Source: Cyrtodaria siliqua (Eukaryota; Mollusca; Bivalvia; Adapedonta; Hiatellidae). From it: a stretch of 64,000 nt of DNA. The notes under the pieces are model-generated. The model was not told the origin of the DNA and did no database searches. It worked only from the letters and a program-made list of their open reading frames with translations. This document shows positions 19,401 through 58,974 of the stretch, piece by piece (position 1 is the stretch's first letter; the number at the start of each line of letters is the position of its first letter). The position numbers and the translations under genes were made by a program. The stretch lies in the NCBI GenBank assembly GCA_037043455.1, contig JAWPHD010001285.1, positions 182,001 through 246,000 on the forward strand, written 5' to 3'.

Positions 19401-20426
19401 GCTAATGATCTCAGATTTCATACATAACTGAAAACATGAACATAATTTAAAAAATAAAATAATAAGTTTATTAAACGTTAAATCACAGAAAATAGAAAAT
19501 AGTATTCGTTTGTTTGGTTTTCCTCGCAGTCATTGTTTAACTATAATGGAATAACTTCCCTTTGGAAATTAACGTCGTGAGCTAATGTAATGATAACGTT
19601 AAGAAAACCCCTTGACGCTGTTTGAGCCACTTTGTTCTACGACAAATACAAAACATGTTGATTTCAAAGGCGTGCTTGCTTTTTTAAAGATTGGATACGG
19701 ATGATACGGACAACTGATAAATCGTTGAAATAGTTTATTGACAGAATATACAGCATTAGTTTAATTCTTATAAAAAAATCAAATCTCGGGATATCTATTT
19801 TCTACCATTTGTTACATCTTTGCAAACCGACAAAAGGGCAGATTTTTAGGTTTATTCAAAGACGTTCTCGGGAGGGAACTATTTTTGTCGTTGTCATGCT
19901 GTCGTCAGGTGACCCTGGATGTAGGAAAATGACGGTTTGCTGCTGCACCGACAATGTCATCAAAAATGAAGCCACGGTCAAATTGGTCCTAGGGTGACAA
20001 TGTTCTTAATTTATGACATATTTTCAAAATTATGTCAAGGACCTCAAAAGTAAGTCACTTATCAAAGTTCATTTTACTGAGATACACATGTAACCACAAC
20101 AAATCATGCAAAGTAAGTGTTCAGTTTTTAATAAGCAAAGTATATAAGCAATATAAGAGACTCAAGTTTAACGAAAAATTGAATGTTGAGTTGAATATTA
20201 TTCAATGGTACCACTATCACATTTTAAAAACCGACACTTCAGTGACAATATTCGGATTGCATGAGTTTTTGAAAGAGTTTAGATCTGTAGTAAAGCATTG
20301 ATTATAATGTAGGCCTATGACCTTTTTTTCCAAATAGTTACCTTTCTGCAGATATAAATTTAAAGGTTAAATAATAACACCTAAACTTCATGCCAATTTG
20401 GTCTAGATAAAGAAAGGTAAAACATA
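19401..20426. other. No gene seen
   Basis: Non-coding. Open frames of 60-90 codons at 19809-20301 show no motif. Confidence 0.4.
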
Positions 20427-21509
20427 TCGGACAGGGAAAGCAGCATTCAAGGACGACAGACAACCACAAACACAAAAACAAACACGCAAACAGACAAACG
20501 AGAAGGCAAAAGTAATAAAAAATGCAAACGACATCACAAACACAAAAGGTTTGACAATAGGGCTACCGCCTTGGAACGGTCAGTGGCAACAAAGGCCACC
20601 GGGGGTTTAAACCGGTTCTAGGGTGTACCAAACCTAACACTTACCCTACTGTCATCCCATTAAAACAGGACAGTGTAAATAAAGAAATCCCCGCCATGAT
20701 ATAATATCTAACCAACAAGGCAGCATCAATATAAGTAAAACACAAATATGCTCGTGTAAATATAATACAAAAAACAATAGCCTAGAAAGCCAAAATGAAG
20801 GTACTCAATGACTTGGCAGAAGCCAGAGCAACAAGAGAATAAACCATTAAAGGCACGACAAGAAAGATGATAGACAAACATCAAACGCCACCGTCCCAAT
20901 GGGCTTTAGGTAGGCGTCATCATAGGGTCCACAGCCTGTCCGATCATCGTACAATTAAAGAGGAAAGCATAGTGGCGAACTGTAAAAGGGTCCACCACCA
21001 AGCATGCAGTATGTTGCAAAATGATAGGGTCATAACCTCTTTTGATAAACGTTTTAACAAGTTTAACAAAGATAGTATGAAAGTGATCATGACCAAGAAT
21101 CTTACGAAGTTTATAAATCACATCACCATAGAAGTCAGGTTGTGATAGTCCTTGCCGCAGAAGAGTCCTTAAATTACTTTTATATTTGGTAAGAAGATCA
21201 GGGTTACGATAATAAAATGTTGCAAAGGTTTTACGAAGTTTATGGTAACGGTACCCATGATTGAGTAGCTTTTTAGTTATACAAAGATACGAATATTAAA
21301 AACGAATAAGTTGAGACACATACACCCCATAAGAAGTTGCTCGGGGAACCTCCCCATCCAAGTGGGGGTAATTAACAATGTCAAAATTAAAATCATCTCT
21401 CTTGTCATGGATTTTGCTAATTATTTCACCATTTTCAATCGAGAGATCTAAATCAAGAAAAGAAGCGTTATTATCAGATATATTAGCTTTATTAAGCTGA
21501 AGTTCTTAA
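20427..21509 (-). mobile_element. Naiad (Penelope-like) copy B, 3' part
   Basis: Read on the minus strand, this matches the 3' third of Naiad copy A (about 53920-55040): the end of the reverse transcriptase, thumb and C-terminus, and the 3' UTR including ACCGGTTTAAACCCCC and AAGGCGGTAGCCCTATTG. It starts exactly at the TTAA (21506-21509) where the 11-kb insertion enters. The rest of the same element resumes at 32862. Similarity to copy A fades at about 20427. Confidence 0.9.
20888..21509 (-). pseudogene. Naiad copy B reverse transcriptase C-terminal part
   Basis: Encodes, with breaks, the region after the YxDD motif (LDLDLSIENG-like, DFNFDIVNYPHLDGE-like) and the conserved C-terminus (IYKLRKILGHDHFHTIFVKL, then ACLVVDPFTVRHYAF). 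The last ~70 residues form one open frame (20906-21121). Copy B was inactive before or after being split, since the upstream half also has a catalytic change and frameshifts. Confidence 0.85.
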
Positions 21510-21530
21510 AGCTACACAATCCCGATAAAA
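21510..21530 (+). repeat. Left terminal inverted repeat of the TTAA insertion
   Basis: 21-bp TIR, preceded by TTAA at 21506-21509 and identical to the reverse complement of 32841-32861. Confidence 0.95.
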
Positions 21531-21591
21531 GGCACACTAGAACTGAACAAATCTAACGGTTATTACGCATGTTGTACTAAGTGATTACTGT

Positions 21592-24500
21592 TAGTTAGTT
21601 TTTAGTTTTTAGTTTTGCTCGCCTTATGGCACTAGGCCTTTTGGCGAGCTTTTCAGTAGGTGGTTAACATTGTTTGGAGGGGAAATTGGAGGGGAATAGT
21701 TGTTTCAATAGTGGCAAGAACCAGGTAGACAACTGTGTCAGTTCTATAGGATTGGCCATGAAATTCAGAAGGCGATTAGATTAAAAATAATATAGTATAT
21801 TAACTGCCCTTAGATGTTTATATTAAGCTCTGGTTGGTCTATTTATTATTTTAAATTTAAATTTAAATTGAGGATATATTATATTCCAACGCCAGCGCGT
21901 CACCATTTATTGTTTTTAAAAATTATTCTATCTTAATATTTACATATATACATACTCCATTTTTTATCTGCCTCGTGCTCCATTCCAGAAGGAATGGACA
22001 TCATTAGTTGAAAGCATATATTTTTAAAACACAATAAAATAAAATAAAAAAAACCAGTGTTGTTTGTATGACATCACTCCAGATATCTCAATAAAAAACA
22101 AAGCCAACAGAGGCGTGCGCTATGAGAGTAAGCACGTCAAGTGGAGTGTGTCCCTCCGCCAAAGCCACGCGGAGGCCACACTGGGGAGGGCACGGGGCAG
22201 AAGTATACATAGGATTTACATGTTAATAATATTACCACCCTATCCCGTTGTGTGCATCAGACAAAATTAAAAAAAATGTTTTCTTCCCCGCTGTCGTCAT
22301 AAAACTAAGGTTATATACAAATAAATCGGACAGCCAGGAATTTCTATCACATAAAAAACGATAATTATTAAAATCACACAGCGGGACCGGTGGGGACTTA
22401 CATTATATTTTTACTATATAGACAGAAAAGTCGAGCAGCTGTCGTTAATCAAGCATGGGTTCGTAAGGAACGATTTACCATACTAAAATCCAACATAAGA
22501 TAATATGATTAAAACCTGTTACATTGTAAATAGGGCAGGACGGACGTTAGTCCGTTACAAAATGCCGATATTTAAAGTTAATTAAAAGATAAAGTATCCC
22601 GTGGATCAAATGGGACTCCTTAGTCTCAAGTATCCATTAGGAACAGATTAACGGCCGATGCTCGTCTTCACAGAAGAAAAAAAATATGTTAAAAATGAGG
22701 TCTATTCCAATTGGAGGTAGTAAACTGTCTGTATTTTTAATACAGAGTTTGTACCCACTGATGAGTCTAAGTTCTTCCCCATCAGTGATAGATTATTAAT
22801 TAAATATGGACAGAATATATATCAGTCCAAATTCTAAATCATATTGGAGTGGGAAAGGTCAGGCGAAATGTGGATTACATTTAATTGATGATTTTACTGT
22901 AGGTGTTAATATAAATAGATTGGGGCAAAAGGGGGTATATAGAGAAATGAACATATAACTCTCATTAAATATATGGGGGAATACGTGACTGATCCTGGAC
23001 CGCTGTGCCTGCGTTGTCATCAGACTCAAAAATCGCCCCAGCGCGTCCACCGGATCAGTCCAATATTGTAGCTATACAATTAATAAATTGTTTTACTGGT
23101 AGTCTGAAGATGATTATACTGTATATTACTAACAGGAATATAAGGGAACATAAGACTCGTGAATAGGTATTGCTGTTATACACATAATCCGTATATATGA
23201 TATATCCAGCTAAGACATAAGAAGTTATATCTTCTTTTGGAAATGTGAATCCTTAATGAAGTCACTAAGCGCACTAAAAACTATTTGTCTATATCGTTTT
23301 TCAGGATCTAGAATATTTGTAAGATTAAACGAAATAGATAATTGTTGAAGTTTAAATTTTAAATTATCTCGGGTTGCAACTAGCTGATCACAATCGAGAA
23401 GGAAATGTTCAGTGGTGAATGGGACAGAGCAAGAGGGGCAATCTTTATATAGATCTTTTATTATATGGCTTCCCATGCTTGCTGGTAGTAGATTGTATCT
23501 CATTCTCAATCTAGTGATATCTTTATTTATTAATTTATTAGTTGAAAAAAGATCATGATTTCTAAAGTTATTGCTAAGCCTTGTGATAGTATTATATTTA
23601 TTTGTTTGTTCAGTTAGATAATGATTTAATTTCATGTTAATTATTTTATGGATGATGGAGTATATTTCTGAAGGGGCTAATGGGACAGGTTGATCCATTA
23701 ATATATTATTTAGGCCTGCCTTACAAGCAAGGTCTGCCTTTTCATTTCCAGGTATTTGAACATGGGCCGGACACCACTCCAATGTAACTGAAAGGTTTGA
23801 GAGGTTGCAATCATTAATCTGAATTAAAATATCTGAAATTAGGTCCGGCCTTGATTTACTAGTTCTATCCCTTATTGCTGTTAGACTGGATAGAGAGTCC
23901 GAAAATATAACTGAATATGGGGGTTTGTTTTTGTATATCCATTTGAGGGAATTTTTTATCGCAATCAGCTCAGCAGTAAATATTGATAATCCATCTGTAA
24001 TTCTTTTTATTTTTGTAATATTTAAAGTTGGAATGACAAAAGCAAAAGCTACTCTACCGGTATTTGGGTCTTTTGATCCATCTGTATAAATGCTAATATG
24101 GGAATTAAATTTATTATCTATATGTTCGTTGAAGGCCAATTTAATATCTTGTTGGTTGTCTTGTTTACTAATCATATTCGAAAGGTTTATATCCACTATT
24201 GGAGTAAGTAAAGTCCATGGGGGAATATCTTTTTTACTAGAGTCTGAAATGTTTATATCTTTTAAGTTGTATTCTTCAACAAGATTAAATGTGACTGAAC
24301 CAAAGGGTTTGGGCCTATCTTTGAACTTATTTTTACAATAAGTAGGTTTAATAATGTCATTGACAGGATTAGTTATTTTATTAGTCTGGGATCTAGACCA
24401 GTATCTCAGCATCTGCTCTTCTCTATGTAAATGGAGGGGAAGAACTCCCGCCTCATGTTCTAAAATATGTTTTGAGGTAGATTTAAGTGCGCCTAGTGCT

Positions 24501-27014
24501 ATCCTTAAAGCTTTGTTTTGAATTATACCAAGTTGCTGTAATAATGAGGAAGAAGCACATGAATAAACGTGGGAACCATAATCTATTTTTGGTCTAATAA
24601 GGGTTTTATATAATATAATTAGAGATTTTCTATTTGATCCAAAATCCGTTCCTTTTAACATTCTTAATAAATTTAAATCTTTCTCACATTTAGCTATTAA
24701 ATTGTGTATATGTGTTGTAAAGTTTAGTCTTCTATCAAAAATCATGCCTAAAAATGTGGCTGTTTTACTGAATATAATTTTATTGTCACCTAGAAAAAGG
24801 TCGACAGATTCTCGGGGGGTATTGCCAAAAATAATTCCCACTGTCTTATTAGGTGATAATTTAAAGCCCCATTTTTTTGCCCATTACCATATTAAATTTA
24901 GGCCCTTTTGAGCTTTGGTTTGTAGTTTATTTAAATTTTTTCCTGTTACCCACGTGCTACTATCATGGCAAATTGGCTAACAACCATGCCAGTGTCTTTT
25001 ACGATATCTGGCAGGTCGTTAATGAGAATATTAAAAAGAAGGGGGGATATTATGGAACCTTGGGGAGTACCTCTCTCTAGTGATTCTTCATCAGAGAGAG
25101 AGTCCTCAACCTTAACTTGTATCTTCCTGTCCTGAAGAAAGGCCTTAATGAAGGAGAAGCAATTTCCTCTAATGCCAAAATCAAATAATTTAGTAAGAAT
25201 TCCTATATTCCAAGCAAGGTCAAATGCTGCTTGTAAATCTAAAAATATGGCAATTACAGAATGGCCAATGTTTTTAGCAAATATTATATCATGTTGTAAT
25301 CTGGCCAACTGATCTTGTGTACTGCGGCCCTTCCTGAAACCTGATTGAAATTTATTTAATAAGTGTTTTGTTTCTAGGAAGTGTTCTAATCGATTTTTGA
25401 CCATATATTCCATTAATTTACTAGGATGAGAAGTTAAGCTTATGGGTCTATAGGATTTAGGGTCATTAGAGTCCTTATTGGGTTTTTTAATCGGGATAAC
25501 ACAGGCCAGTTTCCAGGAGGCTGGATAGGTTTTGGAAGTCCAGATTTTATTATAAAGGAGAAGCCAAATACTTAAGGTGGATTCAGGCATATGTTTAAAT
25601 AGCTGATAGGAAATTTTGTCAGGTCCCACGGCGGAATTTTTTCTGCTATTAATTGCATCTCTAAGTTCCAGCATATTAAAGGGGAGATTAAGAGTAGGAT
25701 CTGTATCCTCTTGAATGTCGTTATTAATTTTATTATTAAAATCAGTTTCAAAATTTTCTTGGAAGTCATTTGTAGTTTTAGGAAGATTGTCCTTAATCGA
25801 AACTTGGGCGTAATGCTTGGCCAACATGTTAACAGTGGCACCGAGGAAGATGTTTTTCCACGTATTTTATTAATCTTTGTCCAAAAAGTTTTAGTGTTAC
25901 TTTGTTACTTTGTTTTAAAGAACAGGTATTTATAAATTCTTTCCAATTACTTTTCTTCGCTGATGATATAATATTTTAAGAGTCAAGCTCTGCATTTTTA
26001 AAGTTAAATAGATTTGTTTCAGGCGGGTCTTTTTTTAATTTATTCAACATGTATTTGCGTTTTTTAACCGCCTGTTTGCATTCAGAATTCCACCATGGGA
26101 CATTTTTCTTTTTTGGCATTTTATTATAAATCGGGACGCTTTGATGCACTATATTCAGTATCGCATCAGTTAAATTATTATTAAATATATTTATATCTTC
26201 TGAGAATAAGTCTTCTGTATTTAAATCTTTACATAGAATATTGAAAAGGTCCAAGTCTGTTTTATTATAGTTGTATTTATCTTGATTATATTGTTCATGT
26301 GATATCTTATCATTTATTAGCTGTATAGATATATAGATTTGGAAGTGGTCAGACCCCCAATTATCGTCTAGGACTGTCCATTGAGTTTTTTGAGAGAGGG
26401 GGATGGTAGAGAAAGACAGATCAATGTTTGACAGGTTACCCGTTCTGTTATCGATGTGCGTTGGGGAGCCGTCGTTAAGAAGGATTAAATTCTGCTCGTC
26501 AACCCAAGACAGAATTTCTTTCCCCTTTTTATTTGAGTGTTCAGATCCCCATGCATGGTGGTGGGCGTTAAAGTCTCCCGTGATTAAGACATGTTTAATA
26601 TTAAGCTCATTTATTTTCTTACTAATTTTATTTAATGATCTGCTATCACAGTTTCTTGAGTAAAGATTAGATAAAATAAAAGTGTAGTCTTTGTATAACA
26701 CTTTAAATAGCTGGACTTCAATTGTAGTTTTATCATTGTCGTCCCTAGGATTTTCTATATTTATATTTTCATAATTAATGTCATTTTTAAAATAGACGGC
26801 CAAACCCCCACACTCATTGTTATTTTTATTATTAAAGAATTTGAATTCATGTCTGAATCCCGGTATAGTTTTAAAATTGTTCTTGTTAAATTTTGTTTCT
26901 TGCAGACATATAATGTTAATTTCCGGATTCAGGTCTAAAAACAGTTTTATTTCTGCATGCTTTATATGAGTTAGTCCCCCCGCGTTAAAAGATATTATGT
27001 TTACTTGCTTATTC
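21592..27014 (-). mobile_element. I-group LINE, 5'-truncated, with 13-bp target duplication
   Basis: The word AAGTGATTACTGT occurs at 21579-21591 and again at 27015-27027, exactly at the two ends of the LINE, as expected of a target-site duplication. The 3' end carries a hairpin (GCTCGCC ... GGCGAGC, 21616-21650) followed by an (AAAACT)-type tail, as in many non-LTR elements. The 5' end is cut just before the endonuclease motif VNIISFNAGGL, so the gag-like ORF1 and the very start of ORF2 are missing. Confidence 0.85.
23225..27014 (-). pseudogene. LINE ORF2: APE endonuclease, reverse transcriptase, RNase H (broken)
   Basis: The protein would nick target DNA and copy its RNA there. In order: APE-type endonuclease (27008 to about 26300; CLQETKF, ITGDFNAHHHAWGS, WGSDHFQI); reverse transcriptase with SAVGPDKISYQLFK, YRPISLTSHPSKLME, motif A FLDLQAAFDLAW and motif B GTPQGSIISPLLFN (25827-24960); RNase H with YTDGSKD, FTAELIAIKNSL, FSDSLSSL and WCPAHVQIPGNEKAD (about 24100-23690); then a Cys/His tail (CPSCSVPFTTEHFLLDC). 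An RNase H after the RT points to the I/Nimb group. It is dead: a stop at 25976, frameshifts between 25976 and 25827, a one-base loss within the FADD catalytic motif near 24965, and TAA at 24884-24886. Confidence 0.9.
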
Positions 27015-27027
27015 AAGTGATTACTGT

Positions 27028-29890
27028 ATACGTGTGGGTTCATATATACAACATGCGCACCACCTACATTCACTGAATATTAATGAGATAAGGCGGTACT
27101 GTATGAGACGCTTCAGGTACTTTGTGAATCGACCACTGGTCTTATAACGGGTATAAAAGTGGATTTTAGCAGACGGCATTTTACCACTTCTCTAGATCTT
27201 CACTACGTGCACGTCGTGGAGAGGGCACTGCCGATATTCAATACCTGAGAACTTGTCACTCTCAGGTTTGAATTGCATATCGGTTGACTAAATGTGAAGA
27301 TGTCTCCTGCGTCCCATCACAGCACACATCATCTGATGTCTCCAGATCCCTGAAGTCGGAACCGGTAGGCGGGCTGAAGCTGCAACGGACCTATACTCAA
27401 CCACAAACTTCGGTCATCACGTTGCAGCGAAGCCCACTTTCTACCATGGTTTTTCACACGCCACAGAATACTTCAGGGTGACACAGACATCGGGCGGTGT
27501 GTGCGGCGCAGGGGTCATACTGTGATGGGTGTGGCCCTAAGCAAGACCGTCACCAACTCGTAGAGGATGTAGGACACCGTAGCGGATGTAGACCACCACG
27601 CCAGCAGCAGACCACCACGCCAGACCACTCCAGACCACTTCACCGCCACAGCGAGAACTACACAGAGCGAAAGCGACACACCATCTACATACATACAACA
27701 GAAGCGACAACACAGCAGCAGCACCAGATCAACCAACACACTCAACTAGAACAGTCCAGACTCAATTGTGCCCGTCGCGGCAGGGAAACTTGTCGTGTTT
27801 GTTGGTGGAGGGACTATAAACCTCAGAACTACACACACACACACACGGCATTTTACCACCGAACTGATGAGACCAATCTTCAGTAGAAAGAGAAATAGGA
27901 AATACAAGTCATTAGAAATTGAAAAGGAAGCTATAAATGTACTTACTCAAACAACCTTATAAGTCCATATTTATATATAATCCAAAACAATACCTATAAT
28001 TAAACGTAGCCTTTCCAACTATCGCGTTGCATCAAAGAAACTATTATATACAAATAATCCTCCATTTTTATGTGTGTGTGTGAGTGTTTGTGTGTAGTGT
28101 ATATTGACACAAAACACAAGGGAGACATTGTTTATCGAAATTGGAATATTGGTAGAGGCTCGTAACTAATGGTAAAGATGGAGATATAGTATTTGTTATG
28201 TGAAGTTATGCATGCATGGTTTACACATAATAGTAGATTATAAATCAACATAATTTTAATGAATTCCTCTTAATTTATGCATGAATTGAATTTTGAAATT
28301 GAAAATAAAATGGATAGAGAGATATAGCGAGACACAGAGACAGAGATATAGACATAGAGAGTCAAAAAGAGGGAGAAGGAAAGAGAGAAAGAGAGAGAGA
28401 CACACACAGAGAAAGAGAGATACAGAGAAAGAAAGAAAGAAAGCGAGAGGTAGGGAGGGAAAAAAGTGAGAAAAGGGGAGAGAGAGTGGGGGAAGGAAGG
28501 AGTGGGGTGGAAGCAGTGAGATAGAGAGAGAGTTTCTATATAGTCTTATAAACATAGGCGTAAGAGCCGGAGGACTCCACACTCCAATGTTTCGGGGTGG
28601 GGCCCAATATTGATGTTTTCATGAAACAAAAAAAAATGCAACACAAATGTATGAATTGGCAATCTGAACATTTAAATTCTGATTGATAATATTTCAAAAT
28701 CAAAGAAAATATGAAAGATGTCAGCTTCCTTCTGTAAGACAGGGTAAGTGTTAACTAAAAACCGAAAGTTTTAGTATAACAATTAAGTTCAAACACTAGT
28801 AATTAACCTTTCCTAAGTTTATTGATTTGTAAAGTAATTTTGAATGAAAACTGGCCCGTTACCAGCCCTGAAGTTTAACCGAGGCATATCCCTTATTTTG
28901 GTGTCCAGTGGCATTAACCTCCCTCTCCACCCTAGATTTTGTTTTAATTTCCTTCAATGTGTTGCATTTCCCCCAGGGTCCTTATATACTAGTATATAGT
29001 TGTTTTTATGTAAAGTATGTACATTCCCAAAATTCAACCAAGACAAATACCTCTGTGTGCCCCAGTGTAGCTATGGACCTGGAAAAGCAATATGTTGAAA
29101 AGCAATGGTTTATATTCACGGTGGACAGACGTTACGGACACTGGCTGCTCAAAACAGCGTTACATTGATCCTGGTTACTCATGTAAAGGACCCTGGCGGG
29201 TAAAAACACGTAAACTATTAAAACAATTTTGCAACATTGGTCCTTTCGACATTAATATGCAAATGAGCTACTTTATCCTAGGTTTGCAAAGCTGGATATA
29301 CGGGGTCCAAACGGGGTTTATAATATTTCGAGATAAAACATATCATCTTGTTTCTTGTCTTAGTAGAAAAAAAGCATAGGCCCAAACATCACATTCTTCA
29401 ATTTTCTTTCCATTTCCCACAGCTTATTTACTATTTAGATGGTATTTGTCTGATCCGGAGAACTATTTCTTCTCTACACAAGGCCAGGGCCCCCATGAAT
29501 ATGCATACAGTGAGTGGGATGTGTTTATCTCTTTAATGCGAATGAACACCCAATCAAAATGACAGCTGACGCTCTCTCTGTCTGTTAGCGTAGTGATACA
29601 TTTCGTCAGTGACGATCTGTTGCGGCTTCTAGCGTGCTCGAATTGTGTCGCCTGCTAAGGACTAGGGCTTGAAAAGACCCCTAATCCAAAAACGACTAGA
29701 TATGTTCCCCTGTTCGAAATATCTCGGTCTGATATCAGCGGTGGAAGATAAAGCTGCGACATTTTCAATTGGGTGGGGTTTATGCGGGGGTCAACTTATG
29801 GAAAAAAACAATGTGCTGAGATATTTTAAAGATTTTTACATTTAACGAGTTTTCACCCTCCAACATCAGCGAGGAACTCGTACACTGCAA
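27028..29890. other. Body of the TTAA insertion: GC-richer block, then purine tract
   Basis: 27170-27860 is less AT-rich than its surroundings, with CA/CAG-rich words (CCACCACGCCAGCAGCAGACC) and a repeated word CGGCATTTTACCAC at 27174 and 27849. 28306-28530 is a long purine tract (GAGA/GGAA). No transposase or other gene can be recognised. The ~100-codon frames here come from composition. 28557-28600 carries a fragment of the GGCGTAAGAG..GTTTCGGGGTGGGG dispersed repeat. Confidence 0.5.
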
Positions 29891-29894
29891 GGGT

Positions 29895-30190
29895 GCTGGC
29901 GTGGTCTACTTGATAGCACGTTGCATTTGACCCGGATGAAGCCTTATCGCCGCAAGTCAATTTCTTCTGTGTATTATTGAGTAAAACATGTTCCTTTATT
30001 CTCGTCCGTCCGATTGGTATGTACACCGGTTCTGTGTTTCGGAGTCTATCCTTGGAACAATTTGCTCAAAGGAAAATATATTCGTAAGTAAGATTAGGGC
30101 AGCTTCTCGGATTTGTATGTATCCTTCCTTTCTTTTGGGAGACCGGCTATAAATATTGTTTCATTCCCAGATACGCTGTGGTTCGTTTTT
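29895..30190 (+). mobile_element. SINE family 1, diverged copy
   Basis: Head-like GGTGCTGGCGTGGTCTACTTG, then a degenerate body with CTCGTCCGTCCGATTGGTAT, ATTCGTAAGTAAGATTAGGGC and GTATCCTTCC. These match the 18577-18835 copy in order. It lies inside the TTAA insertion. Confidence 0.55.
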
Positions 30191-30390
30191 TCTTATTTGA
30201 CGCTGACATGTTGATGATATAGTCTGAATCCTTATATTCTCTCGCCCCTACTTTTTCATTTGATTGTTGTTGTTTTTTTGTTTTTTTATGTATTGTGTTT
30301 TTTTTTTAATTTTCGATTTTTTACAGAAAGTGTGTACACAGCTGCGTGCTCTAAGATAATGCCTTTTGAATAAACTTTTTTTTTAAATAT

Positions 30391-30675
30391 TGAATGTTGT
30401 TTAACGGATCATCAACACAGTATAGGTTATTTAGAGCCGCCCCAGAGAGAGAGGAAGGATACATAGGAATCCGGGAACCGTGCCCTACTCTTATTATCGA
30501 ATAGATTCATATGGTTCTTTAACGTGCTCGGAGGACAGACCGATACACGAGACTGCCCGGTTTACGTCCCCATCCGACAGACGAGGCTAAGGGAAAGTGT
30601 CTTGCCCAATAACACATCGACGAAACTCAGTGGCACCACGGAGGATTGAACCCGGGGCCTCCGGTTACAAATATA
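30391..30675 (-). mobile_element. SINE family 1, best preserved copy
   Basis: Read on the minus strand it has a B-box-like word (GGGTTCAATCC) near 30643-30655, then GGGCAAGACACTTTCCC, GCCTCGTCTGTCGGATGGGG, ACGTAAACCGGGC, GAGCACGTTAAAG, CCTTCCTCTCTCTCTGGGG, GGCGGCTCTAAATA and the end CCGTTAAACAACATTC. Head, body and tail order are typical of a tRNA-derived SINE. It lies inside the TTAA insertion and is convergent with the copy at 29895. Confidence 0.75.
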
Positions 30676-31017
30676 AAAACTGTTTGAGGTCATTGTCGTG
30701 TAAAACGGCGACAAAAACCATCATGCAGCGCGCTGCGGGGAAAGTTAGTTTGGTTAATGTCTATTGCGGGCCCATAGTTTATTTTAGGGTACTGTCGACG
30801 GAAGACAGGTCGTGAAGAGAGAATTATCTCAAGGCGCAAACGTATATACACGAACGTAGGTCCGGAGTACATATTTTAGTATTGTACCTTGTACGACATA
30901 GATGCATTTAGCCAAACTCACCACCAGATTCTATCACTATAACAAGATCACACCCTCTACATTCAATATTGGGCTGTTCTTTTTTTATTTTCCATCATGC
31001 TGCCGCATGAATGATTT

Positions 31018-31215
31018 TAGTACCGGTGGTCCAGAGTGGTGAGGCACTGTTTCAAGTTCACCGCTACGGTCGTGGGTACGAATCCAGCTCGTTCCCAGAT
31101 TTCATGAGGCATGCAGTACTTGTCCTACTGGTCTGCCTTGCCTCCCCGACGAAAAAATCGACCATCATATATAACCTAAAATGTGCTGAAAATGACTTAA
31201 AACACCATGCAACCA
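31018..31215 (+). mobile_element. tRNA-derived SINE, short
   Basis: The A-box-like GGTGGTCCAGAGTGGTGAGG and B-box-like GGGTACGAATCC are spaced as in a tRNA. The tail GTGCTGAAAATGACTTAAAACACC is SINE-like. It lies inside the TTAA insertion. Confidence 0.6.
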
Positions 31216-31295
31216 ATAGATGTGTTTTTTTTTAGAGTTTGTTTTGGTGGAACCATAGTCTCGATCGTCGTTTTCTCTTTAATCTGAAGGTATAT

Positions 31296-31740
31296 ATCAA
31301 CCAGGATCAGGTGCCAAAGATACAGATTGTTGTCAGAATCTCAAGCATTTTTTACAAAGCAACCAGGGTCCGGTGCTCTGAAATTTAGACATGATGTAAA
31401 TATTTGCAGATTTTTAGACTAAACAGTTATCTTTATTGAACAACAGCAGTTGCAAACCAGTTTGGGATCACATTAAATCAGTCAGAGAGAACATATGGAA
31501 GTTTGACTTTTTGAAGTCATCACTTTTGTATCGACCGTTAAGAGTAAGCTTGTTAGGAATTATTCTACATTTGTTGTACATAAGAAAATGCATTTCGAAG
31601 AATATGATATTCTTAGTTTTTTTTCTTATACATACGATACTGTAACTTTTTGACACCAGTGTTCATTTACCAACCAGGGTCCGTTACAAGTGCAACCAGA
31701 ATCAAGGTAACGCAGTTTTGAGCAACCAGGGTCCGTTACG
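31296..31740 (+). repeat. Cluster of CAACCAGGGTCC words
   Basis: CAACCAGG(G/A)TC(C/A) recurs at about 31298, 31360, 31672, 31697 (CAACCAGAATCA) and 31720, often followed by GTTAC. The opposite-strand form (GATCCTGGTTAC, AGGACCCTGGCGGGT) occurs at 29167-29200. The spacing is irregular, so this is not a simple tandem array. Confidence 0.5.
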
Positions 31741-31820
31741 TCCATCCACCGTGATATTAGCAGTCTTCGCGATTGAGCATATTTATGTAAAGTAACTTAA
31801 TTAATACGACATTGTTAATC

Positions 31821-31905
31821 GGCCTCCGTAGCGCAATAGGTTAACGCGCTGTCTTAGTACGCTTTCGCCGTTTCGGACGGGGTTCTAGTCCAGGTCTTAG
31901 CACTT
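31821..31905 (+). repeat. tRNA-like sequence
   Basis: GGCCTCCGTAGCGCAATAGG and GGTTAACGCGC resemble an A-box region, and GGGGTTCTAGTCC resembles a B box. The acceptor ends do not pair and the anticodon arm is poor, so it is a SINE head or tRNA pseudogene. 31906-32840 holds no gene. Confidence 0.4.
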
Positions 31906-32840
31906 TTAAAAACATTTTTTTTATGAATTTTCTTTTTCATGAAGAAGTAGTATTCAAATGCCTTTCAAATTCGTCAGATTTAAATATTAACAAACATATG
32001 CATAATAGCACGCACACAAACACGGTTTAGGCACGCACCCACAAAAGCTCGCACGCAAGAGCGATCCGTTTTAACGAATTGTGACTCTTATTATTTTCCC
32101 AAGAAGCTCCGGAATTGAAAAGTGCAACTGAAGGATAGACGGATGGGCGACATTCATGTGTATACCCCTTCCTCACATCCTGAAAACTACGATTTGCGAG
32201 AAATAATATTGCTGGTCTTTTTCCAACAAAAGAAAATTCCATATATATAACTTAATTTCAACAATATCCTTCAAGTGTCTCATTGTAAACAATAATTTCT
32301 CCCTGTCCCGAGTCAACACTTGAGCATGTATTTCACGTGACATACTATTGGCTACTGATACATGCTCTCTGTATATGTATACATGTATAATACGTGTGTG
32401 ATTTTGGATTATTTGAAGGATATTTTAGGAAATAAGTATATACAAGATATGGAACATATGTGGAATACGCGGGTAAGTGTTTATAATTCTCTACATATTG
32501 ATGTATTTACGTTATGCCTTACGCATTTTACTTGTTCCCTTTCGTTCAACAATACAACATGTATATAGTTACATTGCACGCCACTAAATATCCTCATCGA
32601 GTTGAATAATCTGTAGTTATCGGATATCTGAGCAAATTGCTATATAAACGTTTAGGCTTATATACCCGTAATCGCTGGGTGGTACAATTTCAAAGTTACC
32701 GAAGCGTTTATCACGCCTATTATGCAAATGCCTCGATATACGCTATGACAATATACCAGCCTAAACAATGTAGACAACAAACCAGCAAAGAACTTCATCT
32801 ATAGGCGTTCTTATGTTTAAAACAACTTGAAATTGTATTA

Positions 32841-32861
32841 TTTTATCGGGATTGTGTAGCT
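32841..32861 (-). repeat. Right terminal inverted repeat of the TTAA insertion
   Basis: 21-bp TIR, followed by TTAA at 32862-32865. Similarity between the two ends stops abruptly after 21 bases. Confidence 0.95.
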
Positions 32862-34944
32862 TTAAGGATAAATAGTATCAACCATAGTTGAAAAGAAAGG
32901 GTTGTAAATGTTCAGTATGTCATTCAGATACCGAGAGGTGTCATTAAAAGCTTCAATAACATCTGCCTGGGTATCTGTTGAAAGACTCAACATGAAATCC
33001 CTTTCATAGCAAAATAAAAACAAATCTGCGACAAGTGATGCACAGTTCGTACCCATAGGGATACCAACCATTTGTCTATAAACGGTTGTACCATACCTGT
33101 CGAAAATATTATCTAATAGGAAGATGAGCGCTTCACAAACTTCATAGCAAGTCCACATAGTATAATTGTTTAAACTGCCGTGAGTTAAAGACGCTTTAAT
33201 ATTATTACATGCCAAAACTGTACTATATTCTCTAGCGAATGTTTTTTAAATAAGATAAATTAGCTTGTCTTTAATAAGATGATGTGGTGAGGTTGTATAT
33301 AGTGTAGAGAAGTCATAGGTACTTATTGATGAAACTTGACCTTTATTGAACATTTTATCAAGAACGTCTCCTGAACTTTTTATAGACCAAAATAAATAAA
33401 TTCCAGAGTTTTCATACGTTTTATCACAATATAGTTTAACGTGATCTTGAACGTCAGTAAGAAGTAAAATTTTGGAGATGTTTGTTATGGTGCAGGCACT
33501 AGAATTAGAAATAAAGCGAGCCTTATACGGATTTTTATGTAATTTAGGAATCCAGTACATGGTAGGCAGTTTATTTTGCTTATCGTTTACACCAGCCTTG
33601 AAAGTAGTGCACCGAGTGATATGTGCGGAAACAACATCATCCTCAGTAGAATTAACTGGAGTATACGAATTGGTGCTGCCGAGTTCCAGAGATAAAACAT
33701 TGACGTAATGTAGGCGTCAAACAATAATTACATTATTAGCTGCTTTATCAGCAGGAACCAAAACAAATTTATTATAAAATTCCTGAATTCCCGATTTTAA
33801 ATTACGACAGGAAAACCTAGGTCTCGGAGGTAGTAAAGAGGGGTTAGCATTATAAAAGTTAATACGTGTATCTATAATTTTAAGAATTGACTTTTTCCAA
33901 GTAGAAAGCGAGTTTGGGTCCGCATGTTCTCTACGACACCATTTTATACTAAATCTTCAATGGAGTGGGCGATCTGGGCAAGACAGGCATTAAAATCAAT
34001 TGTTGAAGGTAATCTGTATTTAGGACCTTTCGAAAACAAATGCCGAATACGTTTATCAACAATATCAAAATTACCAGTGATGACATGACCTGCTGGAGCA
34101 TAGCAACATTTCGATGTTTTGCATTCACATTCCTTAGGAGTATATGTACTATATCAAGGTCAGAAACTATTTTGTTGTAGTTGAAAATAATATTTATAAT
34201 TGGTTTTTTATACTTATACCAAATAAGACTTTCGGAATTTTTGAAATATTTAGGAATAGAATCAACTACATGAGTATCCCGAAAAATACTAGGCATGTCA
34301 ATAAAATCAATACCTTTAATAATATATAGTAGTTTTAGAAAATGCCTGACGTGATCAGACTCCTTGTCAATATGGGGTCGGAGAACATGTTGTGTGTAGC
34401 TTTGAACTATGGAAGTAGTGTTATACAAGGGATCTGTACGAATGAAAATTTTGTCGGCTTCCTCGTCGATCAACTTTAGTGAAGAAATAGACAAAGAGGA
34501 AAGCCGTGAAAGCATAGAATGCTTTCCAGACTGTTTAAAAATAGTATGTAAATCAGCGACAGAAATAATTACACGCGAATTACGTTTGATGTTACCATTA
34601 CGCCTACGACCATGAGACCTAGATTTACGCTTTCAAATAGAAAATATAGAAAAAATGTCAAGATTAGGACATTTAGAAATATTTCTTTCTTAATAAATAT
34701 TGTTATTAAGGCCGAGTGGATAAGGTGTCTGTAAGTTTTTCATCCACTTAAGTTCTGCAATATGTCTAGCTTTTATTTTGAAGCTTTTAGTAGCATCATT
34801 ATCAAAAGATATATATTCAACCGGTTGAACAGTTACGTAATTAAAATTATGACCTGACTGACGAAAGTGTTGGTACAAGTAATTTTTTTAACTTTTTAGG
34901 ATTACTTATATTTGTGTTCACGAAATCGAACTTTTGAGGATCGA
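32862..34944 (-). mobile_element. Naiad copy B, 5' part (truncated inside the nuclease)
   Basis: On the minus strand it matches copy A from inside the GIY-YIG domain (CGATCCTCAAAAGTTCG at 34944 downwards) through the linker and reverse transcriptase to the TTAA at 32862. There the 11-kb insertion starts. The 5' truncation is typical of target-primed retroelements. Confidence 0.9.
32866..34940 (-). pseudogene. Naiad copy B ORF: nuclease end, linker and reverse transcriptase
   Basis: Contains YQHFRQSGHN and PVEYISFDNDATKSFKIKAR (nuclease end), the linker with a CxC motif (C-E-C, reached after a one-base deletion near 34140), PADKAANNVIIV followed by TGA (complement of 33717-33719), MYWIPKLHKNPYKARFISNS, a TYDFSTLYT motif A, GIPMGTNCASLVADL, and SRYLNDILN where active enzymes have YLDD. 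The loss of the catalytic Asp plus frameshifts (34140, 33220-33245) make it inactive. At the position of copy A's TGA 52937 this copy has AGA, but it shares the TGA at copy A 53042. Confidence 0.9.
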
Positions 34945-48814: not shown

Positions 48815-49850
48815 TACTGGCCGAAGGCCAGCAGAGCTTATGGGATGGCGAGTTGTCCATCGTCCGCCGTCCGTCCGTCGTCCGTCCGTCGATGCCTCGC
48901 TAAGACAATAGGGACTTCATTTTGCATTCGATATATATCAAACTTTACCACATTGTTAATATCAATGAATGCTCGGACAAGTTTGAAAACCAGTCAGATT
49001 GAACCAGTAACAGCGGAGTTATGGCCCTTGATTTAGTTAAAAATGCTGTATTTTGCATCGTTAAGACGATAGGACATTCATTTTTCATTCCATCTTGACC
49101 AATCTTTATCAGATTGTTAATATTGGTGAAAGCTTAGACAAGTTTAAAATTCAGCCAGATCGGACCAGTAACAGCGGAGTTATGGCCCTTGATCTAGTTA
49201 AAAATGCTGTATTTTGCATCGTTAAGACGACAGGACATTCATTTTTCATTCCATCTTTACCAATCTTTATCAGATTGTTAATATTGGTGAAAGCTTAGAC
49301 AAGTTTAAAACCCAGCCAGATCGGACCATTAACAGCGGAGTTATGGCCCTTGATTTAGTTAAAAATGCTGTATGTTGCATCGTTAAGACGATAGGACATT
49401 CATTTTTCATTCCATCTTTACCAATCTTTATCAGATTGTTAATATCAATGAAAGCTCGAATAAGTTAAAACCAGCCAGATAGAATTTATAACAACGGAGT
49501 TATGGCCCTTGATTTAGTTATAAATTCTATATTTTGCCTCGTTAAGACGATAGGGCCTTCATTTTTCATCTGATCTTTACCAAACTTTAAGAGGTTGTTA
49601 ATATAAATGATAACTCGGACAAGGTCGAAAACCAGCTACATCTGACCAGGAACACTAGAGTTATGCGCCCTTGAATTATTGAAACCTGCCATTGTTAGCC
49701 TTGTGAACACTCTAGCGCCTTCATTTTGTATTAAATCTTTCCCAAACTTAGCCACATTGTTGATTACATTGAAAGCTCTAACGAGTTTGAGAACCAGCCA
49801 GATTGAACCAGTAACACCGGAGTTATGTCCCTTATTCAATATTTGGTAAT
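48815..49850 (+). repeat. Six-unit ~161-bp tandem array with Helitron-like hairpin edge
   Basis: The word GTTATG(G)CCCTTGA recurs at 49019, 49180, 49341, 49500, 49661 and, decayed, 49822, a period of 159-161. Units share ATGCTGTATTTTGCATCGTT, AAGACGATAGG, TTCATTTTTCATTCCATCTT and CCAGCCAGAT. The left edge has a perfect hairpin CTGGCCGAAGGCCAG (48819-48833) and a GTCCGTCC tract. Tandem ~160-bp repeats inside mobile elements are known in bivalves (BIV160-type satellite, pearl elements), and such cores can belong to non-autonomous Helitrons. That assignment is inferred from the period and hairpin. Confidence 0.75.
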
Positions 49851-51289: not shown

Positions 51290-51737
51290 GGTATTACTCT
51301 CCAAATTAACAATTATGAGTCTAATAGTTAAAACTTTAAAAATAAATCTTTCACCTCTTCGGTTACAATCTGCGTCATCAATAAAAATTCCACAAAATTA
51401 CTCTTCATTTCTTAGAACTAAATCATATGTACGCCTTACACCTTTAAATCTTCATTCGGCAACCTCGTTTCATGTTCCTTCGAATAATATTACTAGGATT
51501 TTTAATAATGGCTCAAAAGTTTCCGTTACTCCTCTACGATCACCTGTTTTGAGGAAATACCATATAAAGTCACCTTTCAGAAATCATTTAGTTCATTCAA
51601 GGCGCAGGGTGTTTCCCTCTATTAATAAGTGCAATACTAAGAGGTGCAGTTGTTGTAATTATTTATCTTGCAAGTCCACCATTAAATCAGCTGTTAATGG
51701 TAGATTGTTTAATGTATGTCTAGCTTCAAATATTGAT

Positions 51738-51773
51738 TGACGTACATCTCACGTCATTTATGTTCTGACTTGA
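51738..51773 (+). other. Two in-frame TGA codons in the nuclease zinc-finger region (probable selenocysteine)
   Basis: TGA at 51738-51740 (after ASNID) and at 51771-51773 (after VIYVLT) stand in one frame with the long open stretches on both sides. In Penelope-type nucleases these two places, x-C-x-x-x-x-V-x-Y-x-x-x-C before the YVG motif, are cysteines of the CCHH finger. TGA differs from the Cys codons TGT and TGC by one base. Clam Naiads are known to be selenoproteins. Confidence 0.7.
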
Positions 51774-53041
51774 AATGCACAAATTTGCGGTATACAATAT
51801 GTTGGACTAACAGGTCGATCCTTAAAAGTTCGATTTCGTAAACACAAACATAATGCAAGTAATCCTAAAAAGTTAAAAAATTACTTGTACCAACACTTTC
51901 GTCAGTCAGGTCATAATTGTAATAACGTAACTGTTCAACCGGTTGAATATATATTTTTTGATAATGATGCTACTAAAAGCTTTAAAATAAAAGCTAGACA
52001 TATTGCAGAACTTAAGTGGACGAAAAACTTACAGACACCTTATCCACTCGGCCTTAATGACACTATTTATCAAAAAGGAAATATTTCTAAAGATCCTAAT
52101 ATTGACATTTTTTCTATATTTTCTATTCGAACGCGTAAATCTAGGTCTCATGGTCTTAGGCGTAATGGTAACATCAAACGTAAATCGCGTGTAATTATTT
52201 CTGTCACTGATTTACATACTATTTTTAAACAGTCTGGAAAGCACTCTATGCTTTCACGGCTTAGCTCTTTGTCCATTTCATCATTAAAGTTGATCGACGA
52301 GGAAGCCGACAAAATCTTCATTCGTACAGATCCCTTGTATAACACTGCGTCCAAAGCTATACACAACATGTTTTCCGACCCCATATTGACAAGGAGTCTG
52401 ATCACGTCAGGCATGTTCTAAAACTACGATATATTAATAAAGGTATTGATTTCATTGACATGCCTAGTATTTTTCGAGATACACATGTAGTTAATTCTAT
52501 CCCAAAATATTTAACAAATTCCGAAAGTCCTGTAATTTGTTATAAGTATAAAAAGCCTATTAAAAATATTATTTTCAACTACAACAAAATAGTTTCTGAC
52601 CTTGATATAGTACATAATACTCCTAAGGAATGTGAATGCAAAACATTAAAATTTTGCTATGCTTCAGCAGGTCATGTCACCACTGGTAATTTTGATATTA
52701 TTGATAAACGTATTCGGCATTTGTTTTCGAAAGGTCCTACATATAGATTACCTGTAACTATTGATTTTAATGCCTGTCGTGTCCAGATCGCCCACTCCAT
52801 TGAAGATTTTAGTATCAAATGCTGTCGTAGAGAACATGCGGACCCAAACTCACTTTCTACTTGGAAAAAGTCAATTCTGAAAATTATAGATACACGTATT
52901 AACTTTTATAATGCTAACCCCTGTTTACTTCCTCCGTGACCTAGGTTTTCCTTTCGTAATTTAAAATCGGAAATTCAGGAATTTCATAATAAATTTGTTT
53001 CAGTTCCTGCAGATAAAACAGCTAATAATGTAATTATTGTT

Positions 53042-53044
53042 TGA
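53042..53044 (+). other. In-frame TGA before the RT, shared by both Naiad copies (probable selenocysteine)
   Basis: TGA follows NNVIIV and precedes RLHYVNVLS. Copy B has the same TGA (complement of 33717-33719) in the same surroundings, although the two copies differ at many other sites. Sharing favours an ancestral codon over random decay. Confidence 0.7.
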
Positions 53045-54784
53045 CGCCTACATTACGTCAATGTTTTATCTCTGGAACTCGGCAGCACCAATTCGTATAC
53101 TCTAGTTAATTCTACTAAGGATGATGTTGTTTCCGCACATATCACTCGGCGCACTACTTTCAAGGCTGGTGTAAACGATAAGCAAAATAAACTGCCAACT
53201 ATGTACTGGATTCCTAAATCACATAAAAATCCATATAAGGCTCGCTTTATTTCGAATTCTAGTGCCTGCACCACAACAAACATCTCCAAACGTTTAACTT
53301 CTTTTCTTACTGCCGTTAAAGATCACGTTAAACTATATTGTGATAAAACTTATGAAAACTCTGGGATTAATTTATTTTGGTCTATAAAAAATTCTGGAGA
53401 CGTTCTTGATAACATTTTCAATAAAGGTCAAGTTTCATCAATAAGCACTTATGACTTCTCTACACTATATACACCCTTACCACATCACCTTATTAAAGAC
53501 AAGCTAATTTCTCTTATTCAAAAAACATTCGCTAGAGAAAATACTACATTTTTGGCATGTAATAATATAAAAGCGTTTTTTACTAACGTTAGTTTAGACA
53601 ATTATACTATGTGGACTTGCTATGAAGTTTGTGAAGCACTCATCTTCCTATTAGAAAATAATTTCGTCAGGTATGGAACCACCGTTTATAGACAAATTGT
53701 TGGTATACCTATGGGTACGAACTGTGCACCACTTGTCGCAGATTTGTTCTTATTTTGCTACGAAAGGGATTTCATGTTGAGTCTTTCACCAGATACCCAG
53801 GCAGATGTTATTGAAGCCTTTAATGACACCTCTCGGTATCTGGATGACATATTAACCATTGACAACCCTTTCTTTCCAACTATGGTTAATTATATTTATC
53901 CTAAAGAACTTCTGCTTAAAAAAGCTAATATATCTGATAATAGCGTTTCTTTTCTTGATTTAGATCTCTCGATTGAAAATGGTAAAATAATTAGCAAAAT
54001 CTATTACAAGAGAGATGATTTTAATTTTGGCATTGATAATTATCCCCACTTGGATGGGAATGTTCCCCGAGCAACTTCTTATGGGGTGTATGTGTCTCAA
54101 CTTATTAATTTTTCTAGAGCTTGTACTCGAGTGGATGACTTTAATATTCGTAATCTTTGTATAACTAAAAAGTTACTCAATCAGGGTTACCGTTACCATA
54201 AACTTCGTAGAACCTTTGCAGAATGTTATTATCGTAACCCTTATCTTCTTTCCAAATATAAAAGAAATTTAAGAACTCTTCTGCGATACGGACTATCACA
54301 ACCTGACTTCTATGATGATGTGATTTATAAACTTCGTAAGATTCTTGGTCATGATCACTTTCATACTATCTTTGTTAAACTTGTTAAAAAGTTTATCAAA
54401 AGAGGTTATGACCCTATCATTTTGCAACGTACTGCATGCTTGGTGGTGGACCCTTTTACAGTTCGCCACTATGCTTTCCTCTTAAATTGTACGATGACCG
54501 GACAGGCTGTGGATCCTATGATGACGCATACCTAAAGCCCATTGGGACGGTGGCGTTTGATGTTTGTCCATGATCTTTCTTGTCGTGCCCTTAATGGTTT
54601 ATTCTCTTACTGCTCTGGCTTCTGCCAAGTCATTGAGTACCTTCATTGTGACTTTCTAGGCTATTGTTTTTTTGTATTATATTTACACGAGCATATTTGT
54701 GTTTTACTTATATTGCCTATTGATGCTGCCTTGTTGGTTAGAGATTATAATCATGGCGGGGATTTCTTTATTTACACTGTCTTG

Positions 54785-55931: not shown

Positions 55932-56213
55932 GTTTGTGTTAATTTATAGTAGCTGCACCAGCACCACTTACCACATTTAACATCGCACCTACACTATGAG
56001 ACAAAGAGCGTCCTTTATTTCAAAGTGACCTATAAATCCAGGTTTCTTAACAGTAAATCTGTTTTCAAATCGTTTGATTCCGAGAATGAATGTTAAGCAT
56101 TTCAAGTCCGCTTTTAAAATGTTTAATGTAATAGATGTCGTGTTTTTTATATGAGTAGAAGTAGTAAAAATAATAGTATTAGTGATAGCTGTAGTAGGAA
56201 CAGAGTAGTAGTT

Positions 56214-56258
<45 letters not shown>

Positions 56259-56263
56259 ATACC

Positions 56264-56312
<49 letters not shown>

Positions 56313-56458
56313 ATACCAGTAGTAATAGTAGTTGTAGTAGTAGTAGTAGTTGTAGTAGTAGTAGTAGTAATAACAGTAGTAGTAGTAGTAGTAGTAGTAG
56401 TAGTTGTAGTAGTAGTAGTAGTAATACCAGTAGTAGTAGTAGTAGTAGTAGTAATACC

Positions 56459-56525
<67 letters not shown>

Positions 56526-56581
56526 ATACCAGTAGTAGTAGTAGTAGTAGTAGTAGTTGTAGTAGTAGTAGTAGTAATACC

Positions 56582-56613
<32 letters not shown>

Positions 56614-56632
56614 TAGTAGTAGTAGTAATACC

Positions 56633-56681
<49 letters not shown>

Positions 56682-56686
56682 ATACC

Positions 56687-56732
<46 letters not shown>

Positions 56733-56737
56733 ATACC

Positions 56738-56777
<40 letters not shown>

Positions 56778-56782
56778 TTACC

Positions 56783-56828
<46 letters not shown>

Positions 56829-56833
56829 ATACC

Positions 56834-56865
<32 letters not shown>

Positions 56866-56935
56866 TAGTAGTAGTAGTAATACCAGTAGTAGTAGTAGTA
56901 GTAGTAGTAGTTGTAGTAGTAGTAGTAGTAATACC

Positions 56936-56967
<32 letters not shown>

Positions 56968-56986
56968 TAGTAGTAGTAGTAATACC

Positions 56987-57029
<43 letters not shown>

Positions 57030-57040
57030 ATAGTAATACC

Positions 57041-57092
<52 letters not shown>

Positions 57093-57148
57093 ATACCAGT
57101 AGTAGTAGTAGTAGTAGTAGTAGTTGTAGTAGTAGTAGTAGTAATACC

Positions 57149-57180
<32 letters not shown>

Positions 57181-57199
57181 TAGTAGTAGTTGTAATACC

Positions 57200-57230
<31 letters not shown>

Positions 57231-57241
57231 ATAGTAATACC

Positions 57242-57293
<52 letters not shown>

Positions 57294-57310
57294 ATACCAG
57301 TAGTAATACC

Positions 57311-57359
<49 letters not shown>

Positions 57360-57800
57360 ATACCAGTAGTAGTAGTAGTAGTAGTAGTAGTAAGTTTGTG
57401 TTAATTTATAGTAGCTGCACCACTTACCACATTTAACATCGCACCTAGACTATGAGACAAAAAGCATCGTGTATTTCAAACTGACCTATAAATTCAGGTT
57501 TCTTAACAGTAAGTCTGTGTTCAAATCGTTAGATTCCGAGAATGATTGTTAAGCATTTCAAGTCCGCTTTCAAAATGTTTAATGTAATAGATGTTGTGTT
57601 TTTTATATGAGTAGATTTAGTAAGAATAATAGTATTAGTGATAGCTGTAGTAGTAGTAGTAGTTGTTGTTGTTGATGTTTTCGTTCTTGTTGTAGCGGTA
57701 GTAGCAACTCTAATAATAGTAGTTGTAGTAAGAATAATAGTAGTAGTAGTAACAGTAGTAGCAGTAACTGTCGCAGTAGTAGAAGTAATAGTAGCAGTAG

Positions 57801-58450: not shown

Positions 58451-58721
58451 CAGTGTCCTTGTTAGACGCAACAGAGGACTTGTATAAAATAATAAACGTT
58501 GTATGGTATGTAGTCGCCTATCTGTGAAATTCCAACGCTGGATTTCTGTAGATTTAAAGAGCTACGTCATACTATAACGTCATAATTGTCATTCAACTAT
58601 CGGATGGCGTGGTGGTGTAATGGTAAGCATACTTGCCCGTAAAGCAAGAGGTCCGTGGTTCATTTCTCGGCTGCGGCACGCCGATTTTTGAAATGACAAT
58701 TATTCCGAATATTTCATAATT
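58451..58721 (+). repeat. 271-bp tandem duplication, unit 1, with tRNA-like sequence
   Basis: CAGTGTCCTTGTTAGACGCA begins this unit and again the next at 58722. Inside, 58604-58681 is tRNA-like: GGCGTGGTGGTGTAATGG, an anticodon-like hairpin CTTGC-CCGTAAA-GCAAG, and an acceptor match GGCGTG/CACGCC. The B box (GGTTCATTTCT) is damaged. Confidence 0.7.
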
Positions 58722-58974
58722 CAGTGTCCTTGTTAGACGCAACAGAGAACTTGTATAAAATAATAAACGTTGTATGTAGTCGCCTATCTGTGAAAATCCA
58801 ACGCTGGATTTCAGAAGGTTTAAAGAGCTACGTCATAATATTACGTCATAATTGGCATTCAACTATCGGATGGCGTGGTGGTGTAATGGTAAGCATACTT
58901 GCCCGGAAAGCAAGAGGTCCGTGGTTCAATTCCCGTCTGCAGCACGCCGATTTTTGAAATGACAATTATTCCGA

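Follow-up and report, generated by a model that had tools for sequence, protein, structure and literature searches.

Naiad retrotransposons of clams and spiders reportedly encode selenoproteins with multiple selenocysteines (Sec), in work attributed to Craig, Yushenova, Rodriguez and Arkhipova (2021, Mol Biol Evol). They are Penelope-like elements in which the endonuclease precedes the reverse transcriptase (RT) and several in-frame UGAs reportedly serve as Sec codons; the element described here appears to share this layout, and its in-frame UGAs probably serve the same purpose. Because Naiad selenoproteins have reportedly been described before, we regard the element as another case of an already known type. 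The title of that paper, which contains the words "permuted domains", appears in the reference list of PMC11167929, and no title or abstract opening among the literature matches listed describes a Naiad or transposon selenoprotein. A second point of comparison is fowlpox GPx4, in which a eukaryotic-type SECIS likewise overlaps coding sequence (Mix et al., 2007, as cited in PMC7409322). Fowlpox GPx4 differs in not being a retroelement, and the stop codon inside the SECIS is a feature of the present element. No title or abstract opening among the literature matches listed mentions a SECIS overlapping a stop codon.

Here we describe a window of 64,000 nucleotides from Cyrtodaria siliqua that holds a decayed copy of what appears to be a Penelope-like retrotransposon, abundant in its genome, whose GIY-YIG endonuclease lies at the N terminus. 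We put at roughly 93% the probability that the GIY-YIG/RT protein of this Naiad-type element carries three selenocysteines.

Layout and state of the two copies

The first copy of the element (copy 1; 51315-54535, forward strand) opens at an ATG at 51315 and ends at a TAA at 54533-54535. Its N-terminal part, with the GIY-YIG endonuclease domain (51315..52346, +), stays in frame up to a frameshift near 52348, where copy 1 differs in length by seven bases from a second copy in the window, and the linker and RT part (52385..54535, +) runs from there to the terminal TAA. Read from stop to stop, copy 1 falls into pieces that end at TGA 51738, TGA 51771, TGA 52937, TGA 53042 and TAA 54533. The frameshift and the TGA at 52937, which is private to this copy, leave copy 1 broken. 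The first-pass annotation had called this copy a probable selenoprotein; that reading stands for the family, on the strength of TGA conservation, Cys-containing relatives and a SECIS, but copy 1 itself is a relic of such a family and no longer a functioning selenoprotein gene.

The domain assignments rest on profiles, a structure model and visible motifs. PF01541 (GIY-YIG) matches residues 146-195 of the N-terminal part at 23.2 bits (cut-off 22.6), and the relatives P0208 and P0209 score just under that cut-off, at 20.4 and 20 bits. The N-terminal part was also modelled (mean pLDDT 69) for the sake of fold matching; among solved structures the model is matched best by the GIY-YIG domain of I-TevI (1ln0; probability 0.92, E 0.073), with none of 207 fold matches at E 0.001 or better. 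Pfam RVT_1 reaches 14.4 bits on the RT part, under its cut-off of 29.6, and a search of PDB sequences with the RT part gave no match. The translation of the RT part contains the RT motif YLDD, and 666 database proteins match this part (the best 120 of 666 are listed); RVT_1 is matched by three of 14 aligned members, one of which, P0081, is apparently fused to another RT. In copy 1 the GIY-YIG domain is N-terminal to the RT part, the permuted order. Endonuclease followed by RT is the Chlamys/Naiad layout; the clade name Naiad, used in the first-pass annotation, is kept here as a provisional one.

Copy 2 lies on the reverse strand as a central part (32862..34944), truncated at its 5' end just after the two TGA sites of the GIY-YIG region, and a 3' part (20404..21507). 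The truncation makes it uninformative on those two sites. At site 3 it shares the TGA of copy 1, stops of its own stand at three other codons (TAA, TGA, TAA) and at the insertion junction, and its differences from copy 1 are spread almost equally over the three codon positions (53/55/62), the pattern of decaying copies. An 11.3 kb insertion (21505-32866) splits copy 2; it is bounded by perfect 26-base inverted repeats, with TTAA visible by eye at the edges, and contains LINE-like endonuclease, RT and RNase H frames at 23228-27079 (-).

Several other repeats occur in the window. Upstream of copy 1, at 48893-49833, a 161-base unit is repeated 5.8 times in tandem. At 56204-57392 the triplet AGT recurs about 396 times in a row, which produces long but meaningless open reading frames and probably also the strong GC skew seen between 56 and 58 kb. 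Two Rfam tRNA matches (58606-58678 and 58872-58944; 39.4 and 34.8 bits) lie within a stretch of 266 bases that is duplicated in tandem. ARAGORN calls no tRNA gene at either place, so they are perhaps a tRNA-derived SINE.

Three TGA codons conserved across genomic copies

The first-pass annotation had pointed to two TGAs in the same frame, 33 bases apart in an otherwise open frame, at cysteine positions ahead of a YVG motif. Both are present, at 51738..51740 (site 1) and 51771..51773 (site 2) on the forward strand, 16 and 5 residues ahead of a Cys-Gly that precedes Gln-Tyr-Val-Gly, and cysteine is found at these positions in P0208, in P0209 (the second position) and in a Cys-type element, L001. 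A third conserved TGA, at 53042..53044 (+; site 3), had escaped notice, which brings the number of inferred Sec codons to three; also unnoticed were TGA 52937, a SECIS at 54509-54571, copy 2 and the frameshift near 52348.

To place these codons in the family, we searched the host genome (2.88 Gb in 26,948 contigs) with a DNA probe, which gave 3042 candidates at first look, 40 of which were scored, and with protein P0002, which gave 12,707 candidates, 114 of them scored. The 58 copies compared here are 39 from the DNA probe and 20 of the 114 P0002 places, drawn from the lower end of that list, minus one duplicate. They were chosen for closeness to copy 1, so that the sample represents the near family, and 38 of them were picked with a probe containing sites 1 and 2. 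Two loci 26 kb apart on one contig, L014 (G000:C1461:190129-193629) and L015 (G000:C1461:163883-167383), are identical over 3538 aligned positions and were counted once; either the segment was duplicated recently or the assembly is at fault.

In line with what the first-pass annotation had anticipated, TGA is the majority codon at both of its sites, in 56 of 58 copies at site 1 (one TAA and one CGA make up the remainder) and in all 58 at site 2. Site 3 has TGA in 51 of 52 aligned copies, with one TCA, one copy gapped and five not aligned, and copy 2 also has TGA there (33719-33717). Among 1059 codon columns examined, which cover the reading frame apart from a handful at the frameshift and at the terminal stop, only sites 1-3 hold a stop in at least 10% of copies, whereas the rest of the reading frame shows a background of 80 stops in 54,682 codons (46 TAA, 21 TGA, 13 TAG). 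The terminal codon at 54533 is TAA in 44 of 44 aligned copies, the other fourteen not being aligned, and 53 of 55 aligned copies have TGT as the cysteine codon at 52631..52633 (+; Cys83). A wider hand count of in-frame TGAs in the N-terminal part covered all 114 scored places, of which the window's own is one: 99 have two, 14 have three and a single place has one, with TAA or TAG scattered among them. This count concerns the number of TGAs, whose positions were established in the 58 copies above.

The TGAs might be ordinary decay stops, arising for example from CGA or from TGT/TGC in a dead copy; copy 1 is indeed dead, and decay stops do occur across the copies at the background rate above. 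What contradicts this reading is that TGA, in the 58 copies, is close to fixation at precisely three columns. Moreover, all three columns are cysteine in L001, and the chance that at least three of four in-frame TGAs would fall on Cys columns of L001 is about 1e-4, a value slightly biased because the query had C there. The genomic copies accordingly reject decay of CGA or Cys codons for TGA 51738, 51771 and 53042, and we consider it extremely improbable as an account of these three. The same process is accepted for the TGA at 52937..52939 (+), where 48 of 52 aligned copies have AGA, four have other codons, none has TGA and six are not aligned; copy 2 has AGA at this column. Since most copies are themselves decayed, the shared TGAs reflect the state of the source elements from which they came.

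We next consider the constraint on the protein in those sources. Variants shared by at least 5 copies fall on codon positions 1/2/3 as 12/8/24 between sites 2 and 3 (p 0.003) and as 9/5/31 after site 3 (p 5e-7), while before site 1 they fall as 7/6/7 (p 0.50), with no third-position excess; these p-values assume independent variants, whereas variants within a single family are not wholly independent. Private variants show no third-position excess in any of the three segments (43/72/56 before site 1, 192/187/187 between sites 2 and 3, 233/243/226 after site 3). The third-position excess of shared variants indicates that protein downstream of the TGAs was selected in the source lineage, where it may have been made as one chain with the N-terminal part or separately.

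The latter option belongs to a reading in which the TGAs are true stops, either separating shorter proteins made from internal starts or fixed in a source lineage that was copied in trans. In its favour, stops fixed in a dead source could be spread by copying in trans, no significant purifying signal is seen in the N-terminal segment, and internal starts could account for the downstream signal as well. Against this stand the purifying signal downstream of the TGAs, the coincidence that each of the three stops is a TGA at a Cys column in an element that also has a SECIS, and the ends of relatives from other sources, which fall at these columns too. We judge true stops to be very unlikely.

Cysteine-type relatives and truncated relatives

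The first-pass annotation had also named TGT or TGC at these codons in relatives as support for Sec. L001 (NYSS01000008.1), catalogued as a Planctomycetota metagenome-assembled genome and apparently eukaryotic DNA, has TGT, TGC and TGT at sites 1-3; its Cys83 codon is TGT, and where copy 1 has TGA 52937 it has TCT. Among the proteins, both sites 1 and 2 are Cys in P0208, and site 2 is Cys in P0209, which begins after site 1. These Cys-type Penelope-like relatives share the domain order of the present element and have cysteine at the Sec columns that they cover; L001 differs in being about 30% identical, in having Cys codons in place of TGA and in lacking a SECIS match. It is the one informative locus of the three (L001, L002, L003) found as DNA in genome contigs. 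Viral contigs contained no relatives' DNA, the single pattern match there (L004) being without significant similarity to the element, and plasmids and phages gave no match.

Nearer relatives are known from predicted proteins alone, and many of these are cut at the columns of interest. Against the RT part, these relatives show 76 internal ends, of which 32 fall immediately ahead of site 3 and another 32 immediately ahead of Cys83, and among eight N-terminal relatives with internal ends one (P0206) stops just before site 1. With predicted proteins cut at Sec columns, the family is largely present in databases as fragments. The 32 predicted frames that stop just before the 52631 column suggest that this codon, TGT here, is probably a Sec codon in other lineages, and hence that the number of Sec codons may differ among lineages.

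Relatives that run through these columns have Trp at site 1 in nine of nine cases, at site 2 in nine of 11 (Cys in two) and at site 3 in eight of 27 (Cys in 19); the Cys83 column has Trp in seven and Cys in 36. Translation table 4 turns TGA into Trp, and we therefore read these letters as probably being TGA reported by a gene caller using that table, although true TGG is possible. The frequency of Trp nonetheless lends something to the idea that UGA is translated without selenium, whether by readthrough or as another amino acid (Trp or Cys). Cys-type relatives have Cys rather than Trp at the columns in question, all 44 aligned copies close the reading frame with TAA, and most copies that cover the end of the frame carry a SECIS there, as described below; decoding without selenium accordingly has, in our estimation, a very small chance of being right.

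A SECIS that contains the stop codon

In copy 1, a SECIS at 54509..54571 (+) straddles the stop codon. It scores 33.0 bits against Rfam SECIS_1, below the gathering score of 35, and lies on the same strand as the reading frame, about 1.5 kb past the last inferred Sec codon. The SECIS of copy 2 (20871..20931, -) scores 38.0 bits, above gathering, and these two are the only SECIS_1 matches in the window (Rfam, 12 matches at E up to 5). Both fold with an unpaired core. Relative to shuffled sequences, under two trimmings, their free energies give z of -0.53 and -1.25 for copy 1 and of -1.48 and -2.18 for copy 2; taken alone, the free energy of the copy 1 SECIS is only mildly better than shuffles and unremarkable.

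The structure recurs in other copies, at the 3' end where the first-pass annotation had proposed to look for it. At E up to 0.1, SECIS_1 was matched in 10 of 20, 13 of 19 and 15 of 16 loci in three batches, the 16 being what remained after four of the third batch's 20 loci that are without the SECIS region were left out. Where the whole region is covered, the counts are 23 of 29 (28 distinct) and 15 of 16, or 38 of 44 distinct copies, and 26 of the 38 reach the gathering score. The remaining six of 44 have no SECIS_1 match at E up to 0.1. The duplicate L015 has none, and neither do L001, L002 and L003, the last two of which are fragments only. The outcomes that the first-pass annotation had set against its own reading, a family consensus of TGT/TGC or CGA or a family without a SECIS, did not occur.

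The terminal TAA (54533-54535) falls within the unpaired A motif of the SECIS, and the last codons of the reading frame form its 5' arm, spelling Met-Met-x-x-Thr-stop. The same ending occurs in 28 of the 205 relatives listed, which are known as proteins, so that the SECIS itself is not visible in them; 50 hits among the relatives listed end eight residues earlier, upstream of this motif, and others end nearby. The shared ending suggests that a SECIS-straddling stop may be common to part of the family. Because the SECIS holds the stop codon, each ribosome that finishes the reading frame must unfold its 5' arm. Whether the element thereby limits its own full-length translation, through a built-in brake tied to selenium supply, is a speculative proposal that we consider improbable.

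Taken together, the family shows in-frame UGAs conserved at positions that are Cys in homologues and, downstream on the same strand of the predicted transcript, a SECIS. Under selenocysteine decoding, an element mRNA, if transcribed, would bring its own SECIS at the end of its reading frame, and the SECIS-binding protein, Sec elongation factor and tRNA-Sec of the host would recode the UGAs at 51738, 51771 and 53042 within a single protein, with the UAA inside the SECIS ending translation. Selenocysteine would then replace cysteine in a role in structure or metal binding.

A retrotransposon enzyme that needs selenocysteine would tie the mobility of the element to the selenium metabolism of its host. 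Three near-fixed UGAs and a SECIS, in a family with many copies in its 2.88 Gb genome, make the sequence evidence unusually clean. The family offers a ready system in which to ask why a mobile element would abandon cysteine, and whether a SECIS placed across the stop codon may act as a regulator.
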